Assembly (NCBI RefSeq): GCF_017875315.1
Contig: NZ_JAGGMM010000001.1
Location: 620,001 to 684,000, forward strand
DNA from: Methanomicrobium sp. W14
GTDB taxonomy: Archaea > Halobacteriota > Methanomicrobia > Methanomicrobiales > Methanomicrobiaceae
Direction: 5' to 3'
DNA length: 64,000 bases
Shown: positions 43,335-51,446 of the stretch, in pieces
How the letters are laid out: the number at the start of each line of letters is the position of its first letter
Numbering within the stretch: the stretch's first letter is position 1
The notes under the pieces: model-generated
Told to the model about the DNA's origin: nothing
Database searches by the model: none
What the model saw: only the letters and a program-made list of their open reading frames with translations
Position numbers and translations under genes: made by a program

Positions 43335-44216
43335 TTGGTGATCTTTATATTTGATTATTTGCGGGGAGCAGGAACATTAATCGGACTTGCTACAGGAGAC
43401 GCTCTTGGCGCGCCTCTGGAGGGGCTTAAAGCAAAAAAGGAGGTATATTCCGAAATGATATCCGGAGGTCTGCATTACACGGGTGCCGGGGGCATAACTG
43501 ATGACACTTTGTCAGCACTTGCAATCTGTGAATCGCTTATCGAAAACGAGGGATTCTCTCCTGAAGATATAGCATTCAGAATATGCAGCGAATTTCTGAT
43601 GCACCCGCAATTTTTCGGGCCGACATCAGCAGAAGTTTTCATCAGCATGCTTAAGGGCAAAAATCCGTTCGAAATTTCAAAAAGGATTGGAGAGAGGGGA
43701 GGAGGAACAACCAACGGGAGCGTCATGCGTGGAGCCCCGATAGGAATTTTTTTTCCTCCGGATAAAACAAGAATGCCAAGCATAGTCTGCTCACGGATAA
43801 CCCATTACAACCCCGTCTCATGTGAATGCTCCGCCTTTGTTAACAATATGATAAGCAGAATGTGCAGGGGGGAGGACAGGAATACTGCTTTTACTAAGGC
43901 GTTTTCGGAATGCGAGATCAAAAGAACCCAAAAAATCCTTTCACAGTATAAAAAATACCCCATGATACCCTCCCTTGATTCCCTCCAGGCAACACACTGC
44001 GCGCTGTCAGTATTCATGGAATCCAAAAATTTTGAGGAAATGCTTATACTGGCTGTAAACATGGGAGGAGATACCGATACAATAGGTGCTGTATGCGGCG
44101 CTATGGGTGGTGCACTCTGGGGCTGCAACGAAATTCCCTTAAGATGGAGAGGGGCTCTAAAAGAGTCGGGAAGAATAGAAAATGACGCATTCAGACTTGC
44201 AGATGTCTCCCTCTAA
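43335..44216 (+). CDS. ADP-ribosylglycohydrolase family protein
   Basis: A 293-residue DraG-like hydrolase that removes ADP-ribose from proteins or related molecules, using two Mg ions. Metal-binding motifs are GGITDDTLSALAIC near residue 52 and MGGDTDTIGAVCGAMGGALWG near 246, with GLATGDALGAPLEG at the start. TTG 43335 or GTG 43338 could be the start; no clear ribosome-binding site decides. It converges with the UPF0179 gene, overlapping by 4 nt. No ADP-ribosyltransferase gene is nearby. Confidence 0.88.
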   Translation: MVIFIFDYLRGAGTLIGLATGDALGAPLEGLKAKKEVYSEMISGGLHYTGAGGITDDTLSALAICESLIENEGFSPEDIAFRICSEFLMHPQFFGPTSAEVFISMLKGKNPFEISKRIGERGGGTTNGSVMRGAPIGIFFPPDKTRMPSIVCSRITHYNPVSCECSAFVNNMISRMCRGEDRNTAFTKAFSECEIKRTQKILSQYKKYPMIPSLDSLQATHCALSVFMESKNFEEMLILAVNMGGDTDTIGAVCGAMGGALWGCNEIPLRWRGALKESGRIENDAFRLADVSL

Positions 44217-44668
44217 TCATCCAGAGGACTCAGCTCCACTTTTTTGAGAGTTTTTCCCCTGAGACATTCAAAACCCTGACTGTCTGAAACCGATGATACA
44301 AGGTAGCGTTCACCTTCCGAGAGCCCTTCTGCAAGACAAAGGTCATAGTTTTTGCACCCGGCTTCAGTACAGGAAGGTTCATACGAGATTTCCGAGTTTA
44401 ATATTGCTTTTTTTGAGTCAACGAGAGCTGCAACGGGAGCTTCGACCACTTCAACTGCACAGACTCCGCCATAATGGATGTTACACGAATGCACGGTATC
44501 ATTTTTAAGTCCGGTAACCCTGTAGCGTCTTTTCGGGACAAGGTTATTGCATACCTTAAACATCCTGCACCCTTCGCATTCGGGCAGCTCTCCTTTGTAT
44601 ATGAATTCAAGGCCCGGTTTTGAGAGTAATTTACCTATAAGAGTTATACGTGTCTGATTCTCTGACAT
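44213..44668 (-). CDS. UPF0179 family cysteine-rich protein
   Basis: A 151-residue archaeal protein with the family pattern ITLIGKLLSKPGLEFIYKG, CEGCRMFKVCNNL, and a second cysteine set (PSCTEAGCKNYDLC). The two clusters, of the type CxxCxxxxxC, suggest metal or iron-sulfur binding. No function is known for UPF0179. It follows egsA by 6 nt on the same strand. Confidence 0.87.
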   Translation of the reverse strand: MSENQTRITLIGKLLSKPGLEFIYKGELPECEGCRMFKVCNNLVPKRRYRVTGLKNDTVHSCNIHYGGVCAVEVVEAPVAALVDSKKAILNSEISYEPSCTEAGCKNYDLCLAEGLSEGERYLVSSVSDSQGFECLRGKTLKKVELSPLDD

Positions 44669-44674
44669 CCTTCA

Positions 44675-45754
44675 TCACTTCATGTAGAGCATTTTTACCA
44701 GCTTTCTCGCGCATTTATCTTCGAGTCCCATATCAAGAATTGTAAAACGCTCAGGTCTTATGTTTTTTGCCATTAACATGGCTTTTACAGCAGTTTCATC
44801 ATCAATTCCTATTTCAGCAGGTGTCGTAGGTGCGCCAATATCTTTCAGGGATTTTCTGATGCCCCTCCAGTCTCCGCCGTGAAGGTACATCGTCATGATA
44901 GAACCAATGCCACACTGCTCGCCGTGAAGGCCCTTGTTTGGCGCAATAACATCCAGCGCGTGGCTGAATTTGTGCTCTCCGCCTGATGCAGGTCTTGAAG
45001 AGCCTGCTATACTCATCGCAACTCCGGAGGACACAAGAGCCTTTATCACCATCCATGCCCCCTCTTCGGAGCCCGGATACATGAAGCTGGAATTTTTGAC
45101 AAGAATTTCCGCTGTCATTCTTGACAGTGCCGCGGCATATTCGCTTATCGGCTCCCCTTTTATCCTGTGAGACAGTTCCCAGTCAAGGATTGCGGTATAG
45201 TTGGATATTACGTCCGCACACCCTGAAGCCATGAGCCTGTGAGGGGCTCTGGCAATTATCTCTGTATCGGCTACTACTGCATGGGGAGGATGCGCATCAA
45301 GAGACACACTACCGTTTTCAGTAGGAACGGAGGCCCGTGAAGAAGCAATGCCGTCATGCGAGGCCGCCGTAGGGACGCTGATAAACTGGCTGTCAGTGTT
45401 GTAGGAGACAACCTTTGCCAGGTCAATTACCTTACCGCCGCCTACACCCACAAGAAAGTCAAAATCATGCGCGATTTTCTCCACTTTTTCGATTGTGGGA
45501 ACAGAGATGTTGTCCGCAAGAAAAACGTCCACATCATATTTCTCCCCGAGGAGATCACGTGCATGGCCACCGGCAGCCTTTATTGTATTTTTGCCGGATA
45601 TAACGAGTGCAGACTTTCCAAGATGCAGGTCTTCGCAGACTTTCGGGAGCTGTTCTATAATTCCGTGGCCTATAAGAACGTCCCTTGGCATCTGAAGCCA
45701 TTTTGATTTGTCGAACCGTGGTGTTTTGAGTACTTTTATACTATCTGCGCTCAT
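44675..45754 (-). CDS. egsA: sn-glycerol-1-phosphate dehydrogenase
   Basis: A 359-residue enzyme that reduces dihydroxyacetone phosphate to glycerol-1-phosphate, setting archaeal lipid stereochemistry. The NAD(P) site is FLVGVGGGKVIDLAKVVSY, followed by ISVPTAASHDGIASSRASV. Zinc ligands lie in MASGCADVISNYTA, GGEHKFSHALD and LHGEQCGIGSIM. Length and motifs are standard. It diverges from the DUF63 gene with only 14 bp between start codons. Confidence 0.96.
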   Translation of the reverse strand: MSADSIKVLKTPRFDKSKWLQMPRDVLIGHGIIEQLPKVCEDLHLGKSALVISGKNTIKAAGGHARDLLGEKYDVDVFLADNISVPTIEKVEKIAHDFDFLVGVGGGKVIDLAKVVSYNTDSQFISVPTAASHDGIASSRASVPTENGSVSLDAHPPHAVVADTEIIARAPHRLMASGCADVISNYTAILDWELSHRIKGEPISEYAAALSRMTAEILVKNSSFMYPGSEEGAWMVIKALVSSGVAMSIAGSSRPASGGEHKFSHALDVIAPNKGLHGEQCGIGSIMTMYLHGGDWRGIRKSLKDIGAPTTPAEIGIDDETAVKAMLMAKNIRPERFTILDMGLEDKCARKLVKMLYMK

Positions 45755-47188: not shown

Positions 47189-48622
47189 ATGGCAGAAGAC
47201 AGCGGAGCACTCCCGTCAAAAAGCAACTTCAGTGAATGGTACAATGAGATACTCTGGCGTGCGGAGATTATGGACGTACGCTACCCGGTAAAAGGACTTT
47301 ACGTCTGGTTTCCCTTCGGCTTTTCCCTGAGGCGCTCAACTTATACAATACTTCGTGAACTAATGGACAGGGACCACGAGGAGACCCTGTTCCCACTCCT
47401 GATTCCTGAAAACGAATTCATGAAAGAGGCTGAACATATAAAAGGGTTTGAAGAGGAGGTCTACTGGGTTACACACGGGGGGTCAACAGAGCTTGACGTC
47501 AAACTGGCCTTAAGGCCTACAAGCGAGACCGCCATTTACCCTATGTACGCATTATGGGTGCGTTCCCATGCAGATCTGCCTTTAAAGCTCTACCAGATTG
47601 TCAACACCTTCCGCTATGAAACAAAGCACACACGTCCCCTGATAAGACTGCGTGAAATTACGTCCTTTAAGGAAGCCCACACCGTTCATGCCACATGGGA
47701 TGAGGCAAAAGAGCAGGTTGAAGAGGCTATTAGGCTTTACAGGGAGTTTTACAGCAGAATCTGTGTCCCGGTAATATTCTCAAAACGCCCCGAATGGGAC
47801 AAATTTCCCGGCGCAGACTATACCATGGCAGCCGATGCCATAATGCCTGACGGAAAAACACTTCAGGTAGGAACTGTTCACCACCTGGGAAACAACTTCT
47901 CAAAGACTTTTGACCTGAAATATGAGGACGAAAACGGCGAGCAGAGACTTGCATACCAGACATGCTATGGCATATCGGAAAGATGCATTGCAGCTCTCAT
48001 CAGTATCCACGGCGACGACAAAGGCCTTGTTCTTCCGCCTGAAATTGCTCCGGTTCAGGTTGTAATTGTGCCGATTCTTACAAAGAAAAACACCGGTGAA
48101 ATAACAGAAGCCGTGAAAAAACTTGAATCAGATATAAAGACCGCAGGTCTGCGGGTAAAAACTGATTTCAGGGCGCTTCGCCCCGGGGCGAAATATTATC
48201 ACTGGGAGATGAGAGGTGTTCCGTTAAGAGTCGAAATAGGCCCGAGAGATCTCGAAAAAGGTGTTATTACTGCCGTAAACCGCTACGGCCGGAAAGTGCA
48301 GATTGATATCAGTGATGCAGTCACAGGTATCAGGGAGCAGCTTGAGACATTCAGGCAGGAAATGACAAAAAACGCCTCTGAAAAAATCAAAACCCAGATA
48401 AAGCCCGTTTCTTCGCTTGAAGAAGCAAAGGAAGCTGTTTCAAAAGGAGTAGCCGTTGTCCACTGGTGCGGATGCAGGGACTGTGCTGATGCAATCGAAA
48501 AAGAGATGGATGTAAGCGTCCTCGGAAGTGAAATAAGGTCCGAGTTCATTGAAGAGAAAGACGGGAAATGCATAATCTGCGGAAAGCCCGCAAAACCTGC
48601 TCTTGTAGCAAGGACTTACTGA
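47189..48622 (+). CDS. proS: Prolyl-tRNA synthetase, archaeal type
   Basis: A 477-residue class II synthetase. Motif 1 ([19 protein letters not shown]), motif 2 ([19 protein letters not shown]) and motif 3 ([19 protein letters not shown]) are complete. The anticodon domain follows near residue 290, and the C-terminal zinc-binding domain ([15 protein letters not shown] and [17 protein letters not shown]) marks the archaeal/eukaryotic form. AAGGAG lies before the ATG. Confidence 0.96.
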
Positions 48623-49664: not shown

Positions 49665-51446
49665 ATGCAAAAATGGAGATGCAGAGTCTGCGGGTATATC
49701 TACGATGAAGAAAATGGAGAGCCTGCAACAGGAACAAAACCAGGTACACCATTCAGAGACCTTCCAAAAGACTGGAAATGCCCCATATGCGGAGCTGACA
49801 AAAATTCATTCAGTGTCGCGGACCCTGAAATGGAAAAAGAAAAAAGCGGCGGTAAAACAGTATCCGATCTTATCATATCAGAACTCCTGGACTGGGGAGT
49901 AAACGTTGTCTTCGGGCTTCCCGGAACATCCTCTCTGGGTCTTGTCGAGGCAATCAGAAAAAACAGTAAGATGCAATATATTGTCGTAAGACATGAGGAG
50001 AACGCAGCTATGGCGGCTTCGGCATACAACAAATATACAGGCAAAATCGCAGCATGCCTTACAATCGCGGGACCGGGAGCAACAAACCTTGCAACAGGAC
50101 TTTATGACGCAAAAGAAGACCATGCATCAGTTATATCAATCAACGGTCAGGTGAAGTTTCAGTATACAGGCCCGGGAGGCATACAGGAGATAGACCTGGA
50201 CGCATTTTTCAGACCGATAACGGTCTATAACAACACGATTTATGACAGCCACACGGCGCTTCTTATTCTTACAAAAGCCCTGAAATCCGCCATAATAAAA
50301 AAAGGAGTCGCACAGGTCTCGATACCTAACAATATACAGAAAGAATACATCGGGGAAGAACTATGCTGCCGTGAAAACTGCATAAAAGACTTCAGAATAA
50401 TACCTGGTACTGAAGAACTGGAAAAAGCGGCGTCTCTTATAAACAATTCAAAAAACCCTGTTATTATAGCAGGTTTCGGATGCAGAAATTCAGGTGACAA
50501 GGTAATTGAACTTGCAAAAAAAAACGGTTCTCCTATTGTTACGACATTCAGGGCAAAGGGAATAATCCCGGAATACGAAAAGCTAAACCTGGGAATCTTA
50601 GGCTCTGTAGGAACACCGCATGCAAGGGAATTTGTAAACGGTTCCGACCTTCTTATTGCAGCAGGAGCCGGATTTTCCCAGTTCACGAACATTCCTGTTG
50701 ACAAAAAAATAGTCCAGATAGACCTTGACCCGATGAAACTTGAGAAAAGTACTCAGGGAATATCCCTGTGGGGCAACTGCGACCTTGTATTACCCTTGCT
50801 GACAGAGAAAGTCAAAAGTAGAAAATACTCTGAAAAACTTGAAAAAATTTGTAATTTAAAGAAAAAATGGTATGAAAAACTTGAAATGGAGGCTGATGAT
50901 ACAATGACACCCATAAGGCCCCCTTATATTATGAAGATACTTTCGGAAACAATACCGGAAGATGCCCTAATAGCTCTTGATGTCGGTGAAAACCAGTGGT
51001 GGTTCGGCAGAAACTTCAGGATGAAGAATCAGCTCTTCGCGATGTCGGGTTATCTCGGAACCATGGGATTCGGGTTTCCCGCCGCGATTGCCGGAAAGAT
51101 TGCATATCCTGAAAAGGACGTATTCTGCATAACAGGTGACGGGGGATTTGCAATGGCAATGGCCGACTTTGTGACTGCCGTAAAATACAATCTTCCTGTA
51201 ATTGTGGTGATTCTTTCAAACAGACAGTTTGGCATGATACAGGTTGAACAGATGATGGAAAAATACCCAAATTACTCCACAGAACTTCTTAATCCGGATT
51301 TTTCTGCATATGCAAAATCATGCGGAGGCGACGGGATAAGAGTTGAAAAACCAAAAGACCTCGGGCCTGCACTAATCAAGGCCATAAAATCCAAAAAACC
51401 TTTCATAGTTGATATCGACACAGACCCAAGAAGGTTTACAACTTAA
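49665..51446 (+). CDS. Rubredoxin-TPP enzyme fusion (pyruvate oxidase/acetolactate synthase-like)
   Basis: A 593-residue fusion. Residues 1-53 are a full rubredoxin: [13 protein letters not shown] and [13 protein letters not shown] give the two CxxCG iron ligand pairs. Residues about 65-593 are a thiamine-pyrophosphate enzyme: [16 protein letters not shown] and [17 protein letters not shown] with the catalytic Glu, the middle Rossmann-like domain ([14 protein letters not shown]), and TPP binding by [12 protein letters not shown] and [14 protein letters not shown] plus a downstream Asn. Family members are acetolactate synthase, pyruvate oxidase, oxalyl-CoA decarboxylase and others. A fused rubredoxin points to electron transfer, so an oxidative decarboxylase is more likely than plain acetolactate synthase. 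The substrate is unknown. GAAGGTAA precedes the ATG. Confidence 0.85.

Follow-up and report, generated by a model that had tools for sequence, protein, structure and literature searches.

A rubredoxin fused to a pyruvate oxidase-like ThDP enzyme in Methanomicrobiales: a candidate 2-oxoacid:rubredoxin oxidoreductase

The window, a 64,000-nucleotide stretch of the 2.54 Mb genome of Methanomicrobium sp. W14, carries a gene (49665–51446, plus strand) whose 593-residue product joins an N-terminal rubredoxin (Rd) to a ThDP enzyme that, judged by its sequence, is closest to the pyruvate oxidases (POX) and not to acetolactate synthase (AHAS). We propose, with a probability of roughly 0.6, that this Rd-POX protein is a soluble oxidative 2-oxoacid decarboxylase of the POX type, dependent on ThDP and probably on FAD, which possesses a built-in outlet for single electrons. 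The more specific proposal of a pyruvate (2-oxoacid):rubredoxin oxidoreductase, in which a core working without O2 or quinone has been kept and its carrier swapped (Rd in methanogens, Rieske in halophiles), stands at about even odds. That an oxidative 2-oxoacid decarboxylase hands its electrons to Rd had been suggested in the earlier note, and this is now the best-supported reading, based on a POX-type signature, the lack of a membrane or quinone tail, the repeated association with Rd and the replacement of Rd by a Rieske domain.

The open reading frame runs from an ATG to a TAA codon, and all features below lie on its plus strand. Residues 1–51 (49665–49817) form the rubredoxin domain (PF00301), with the CxxCG motifs C6-R-V-C9-G and C39-P-I-C42-G at residues 6–10 and 39–43; the Pfam match at residues 3–49 spans the entire profile (1–47 of 47; 8.9e-22, 77 bits against a cut-off of 23), bearing out the earlier claim of a complete Rd with two CxxCG pairs at the head of the enzyme. 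A linker at residues 52–64 (49818–49856), which differs among relatives and is modelled with a pLDDT of ~58 at residues 51–60, leads into a complete ThDP enzyme in the same frame (about residues 62–593). This part consists of a PYR domain at residues 65–178 (49857–50198; PF02776, TPP_enzyme_N), a central, flavin-type domain at residues 252–376 (50418–50792; PF00205, TPP_enzyme_M) and a PP domain at residues 439–584 (50979–51416; PF02775, TPP_enzyme_C), each of which exceeds its Pfam cut-off. The ThDP-activating Glu, E111 (codon 49995–49997), occupies an invariant alignment column, and the GDG...N motif is formed by residues 491–493 and N519 of the PP domain, where D492 and N519 are the predicted Mg/ThDP ligands in the alignment site table. 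The protein therefore has everything expected of a COG0028-type ThDP decarboxylase, namely all three domains (N, M and C), the catalytic Glu and the GDG...N motif; the Glu and TPP motif are intact, as had been stated, and its placement in the acetolactate synthase/pyruvate oxidase family is correct, with POX closest. The C-terminus that follows is very short (residues 585–593; 51417–51443). The gene probably stands alone, its upstream neighbour, a hexapeptide acetyltransferase gene, being ~200 bp distant and its downstream neighbour lying on the opposite strand. A sigma-70-style promoter scan at this gene was discarded as not meaningful for an archaeal host.

Among curated families, the pyruvate oxidase model PRK08611 scored highest (492 bits), followed by other pyruvate oxidase or dehydrogenase models (395 and 350 bits) and acetolactate synthase (345 bits); no curated POX or AHAS model reached its own cut-off with the fusion protein (742 bits for PRK08611; 350 against 638 for SpxB; 343 against 538 for the acetolactate synthase model TIGR00118). 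The Bacillus-type POX of this top family (L112) shares 39% identity with Rd-POX and differs from it in having a 37-residue tail and no Rd. The best PDB match by sequence was the POX of L. plantarum (1pox), which is phosphate- and O2-dependent and makes acetyl phosphate, whereas the host of Rd-POX is an anaerobic methanogen. In the alignment, D353 is conserved together with the Gly-rich positions of the central domain, and FAD is bound by the characterised families nearest to Rd-POX, so that FAD binding is conceivable here. The closest characterised relatives also use pyruvate, which speaks against the alternative that the Rd outlet is kept and the physiological substrate is another 2-oxoacid; we consider this unlikely, if by no means negligible, given that active-site position 88 varies over the clade (Thr, Ser, Asp or His) and that no gene neighbourhood fixes the substrate.

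Position 528 (codon 51246–51248), which we take to correspond to Glu483 (E483) of the L. plantarum enzyme, carries Glu in each of the 49 clade members compared, as it does in the aligned POX sequences of bacteria. The AHAS hallmark, a Trp for the second 2-oxoacid that we presume to match plant W574, is absent at this position from those 49 members. In plant AHAS, pyruvate touches W574 (PMC9188596). These data make it improbable that the protein is an AHAS-like or other carboligating ThDP enzyme in which Rd merely adjusts or senses the redox state of the flavin: the second-substrate Trp has given way to Glu in every relative, the host genome already encodes a separate AHAS (L002, 34% identity) that has the Trp, and scores favour POX, as do the trees, in which the POX clade adjoins bacterial POX and is set apart from L002. 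Such a carboligase would nevertheless have the same fold, the AHAS models do reach 345 bits, and position 524 is Met, as it is in AHAS and in Bacillus-type POX. At the position of F479 in L. plantarum POX, the fusion protein has Met and some relatives have Asn or Lys, which, like the score below the POX cut-off, speaks against our main reading. Truncated E. coli PoxB (3eya) was the top VIA-align chain for the AlphaFold model (mean pLDDT 83.7; Z 43.1, rmsd 2.5, 513 residues), with an HKA synthase tied at <1 Z and HKA synthase 8x3z and AHAS 6bd3 lying ~2 Z or less from PoxB. The fold search was consequently rejected as a family discriminator, since HKA synthases, AHAS, HACL and oxalyl-CoA decarboxylase all lie near PoxB, and with several families within a few Z, structure alone cannot pick among them.

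The quinone-dependent enzymes PoxB of E. coli, PQO of C. glutamicum and CidC of S. aureus are likewise three-domain ThDP enzymes (~28% identity), and PoxB, the best structural match, agrees together with PQO at the positions of E111, D492, N519, K298 and E528; Rd-POX differs from all three in having an N-terminal Rd and no C-terminal lipid or membrane tail. PoxB, PQO and CidC are lipid-activated and reduce membrane quinones, and in PoxB the binding of lipid by the C-terminal helix enhances TPP-to-FAD transfer, an activation thought to help transfer to membrane electron carriers (PMC7245740). Across the clade of Rd-POX, 4–12 residues follow the conserved D587 (6 in the fusion protein), compared with 37–50 in those bacterial POX relatives whose C-terminal ends are established, and the lipid-activation/membrane region of the PoxB/PQO/CidC type is absent from every clade architecture in the alignment. 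The forms that carry an iron domain at the N-terminus thus have no membrane-docking end. Loss of the tail is not tied to the fusion, because solo POX forms are also without it; these may use free Rd.

In the mechanism that we propose, E111 would activate ThDP and a 2-oxoacid, most likely pyruvate, would be decarboxylated to yield the hydroxyethyl-ThDP carbanion, from which two electrons would pass to FAD in the central domain. FADH2 would then deliver single electrons to Rd, which hangs on a flexible tether and would take them up at its [Fe(Cys)4] site, and reduced Rd would pass them to a soluble acceptor, e.g. a flavodiiron protein or rubrerythrin, with acetate and CO2 as product, as in PoxB. 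What we show are the domains, the conserved ThDP residues, E528, the lack of a membrane or quinone tail and the recurrent linkage or exchange of the carrier domain; the use of FAD and of pyruvate, the product formed, the way in which electrons run and where they end up are inferred, the acceptor being a guess based on genome content. Conversion of pyruvate to acetate and CO2 has a potential of ~ −0.7 V and Rd one of ~0 V, so that flow from pyruvate to Rd would be irreversible and would squander energy, as suits a stopgap source of electrons better than energy conservation. Pyruvate oxidation is thus strongly exergonic towards Rd, making outflow the natural direction, and the presence in the same slot of a Rieske domain, whose potential is usually higher, also fits an acceptor. 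On these grounds it is decidedly improbable that electrons run in reverse or that none turn over, with Rd feeding electrons to the flavin or acting as an O2/redox on-off switch, even if some relatives are without a linked Rd and other Rd-containing proteins of the host, a GltB-like fusion and an Rd-flavodiiron run (described below), probably receive or relay electrons.

Within the order Methanomicrobiales, 84 of the 150 genomes sampled carry the enzyme, and 84 of 393 in the phylum sample pass the strict cut-off; bacterial coverage comprised the phyla touched by a plasmid search and a scan of close relatives. When inclusion of Rd was judged by query coverage (a match beginning at query residue 1–4), 43 of the 84 enzyme-bearing genomes had matches that include Rd, 37 had none in the same frame and 4 had fragments. 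The fusion is thus widespread, and its recurrence in 43 genomes argues that it is no assembly accident. Five architectures occur among the relatives: Rd-POX, seen in several families, among them a distant branch with ~41% identity; Rd-Rd-POX, exemplified by L010 with two Pfam Rd stretches; overlapping Rd and POX genes; POX alone; and Rieske-POX. In the tree the split forms make up one clade and the Rieske forms another, and the clade that holds all five architectures is likely, not certain, at a support of 94/90. Neither a Rd in the protein nor one within 4 kb was found for the POX of L067–L069, L104, L096, L106 and L097–L100, which means that several lineages can do without an Rd that is covalently attached or encoded nearby. 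The separate genes come from five loci of family f4, in each of which the 3' end of a short Rd gene reaches into the beginning of the POX gene, the two being read in different frames. Their overlap, 14–20 bp where measured (L071, L072, L073, L103), probably reflects translational coupling, and a programmed frameshift yielding the fusion is possible; in those pairs that were worked out, the frame offset is constant. L093 was ruled out as a split gene, Rd and POX being fused there. Its Rd-POX open frame (minus strand, around 9740) has no ATG, GTG or TTG ahead of Rd, possibly as a result of a CTG or other start codon or of an assembly error.

Pfam Rieske domains are N-terminal in the haloarchaeal proteins L094, L095, L110 and L113 and in L109 from a plasmid of Mycobacteroides abscessus (1e-11 to 1e-19), all belonging to a type annotated 'thiamine pyrophosphate-binding protein'. 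The Rieske form is uncommon: in the class to which L094 belongs, 5 of 116 genomes have it. Rieske-POX resembles Rd-POX in its short C-terminus and N-terminal one-electron iron domain and falls in the same, not conclusively supported clade; it differs in that the domain is a Rieske [2Fe-2S] and not a rubredoxin. Because L109 clusters in the tree with the Rieske-POX of haloarchaea, its transfer between domains of life is likely. On the plasmid, L109 (3842–5743, NC_021278.1) adjoins a DUF4331 gene. The replacement of Rd by Rieske suggests what may be a real way of wiring an old enzyme family. Zn can sit in Rd-like folds and solo POX forms exist, but that the domain is a structural metal knob without redox role is very improbable, as it is a canonical Rd matching all 47 profile positions, is duplicated in some species and a separate gene in others, and is elsewhere replaced by an unrelated redox domain. 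Rubrerythrin, flavorubredoxin and archaeal Rd-GltB also use Rd as a built-in relay, but with a partner that is no ThDP enzyme.

The further suggestion of the earlier note, a role in oxygen or peroxide detoxification, is plausible and has gained no more than that, there being no conserved neighbourhood to support it. Two standalone Rd genes (56 and 52 aa) lie directly upstream of an FprA-type flavodiiron gene in the host genome (G000:C1 902558–904090; L003 127–1659, minus strand), which also has two rubrerythrin-family matches; these provide a circumstantial link to oxygen defence. The proposed check for co-occurrence with rubrerythrin or flavodiiron genes hence finds both in the host, although the rubrerythrin pattern is uninformative: 149 of the 150 Methanomicrobiales genomes have rubrerythrin, with or without the Rd-POX gene, and against 84 of 150 for the enzyme the test has no power. 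Among the compared loci, clusters around Rd-POX were local to close relatives and no neighbour was conserved, and operon or neighbourhood logic for function was dropped. UPF0179, Fe-ADH-like and tRNA-synthetase-like genes (window spans 44213–45754 and 47189–48622, the latter tRNA-synthetase-like) recur near Rd-POX in L074, L075 and L081. Elsewhere in the genome, L005 (1495–3009, G000:C2) encodes a GltB-like protein of the glutamate synthase type (504 aa) that bears an N-terminal rubredoxin-like domain and, judged by its sequence, appears to be a second Rd-flavoenzyme fusion of this host.

In the open-access literature we found no description of a fusion of Rd with either POX or acetolactate synthase, and the passages retrieved from papers on methanogen genomes or aerotolerance discuss rubredoxin, rubrerythrin or flavodiiron proteins and make no mention of the Rd-POX enzyme. 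The architecture may already be listed in domain databases; it is widespread and, as far as we found, uncharacterised in the literature. Carried by over half of the Methanomicrobiales genomes sampled, this type of enzyme is a common unstudied one and no curiosity. If our reading is correct, the pyruvate oxidase family would have a third kind of electron acceptor, and methanogens would gain an irreversible, ferredoxin-independent drain for pyruvate that could feed the reduction of oxygen and peroxide. The exchange of Rd and Rieske on one core would then constitute a natural experiment in redox-domain swaps between anaerobic and aerobic lineages.
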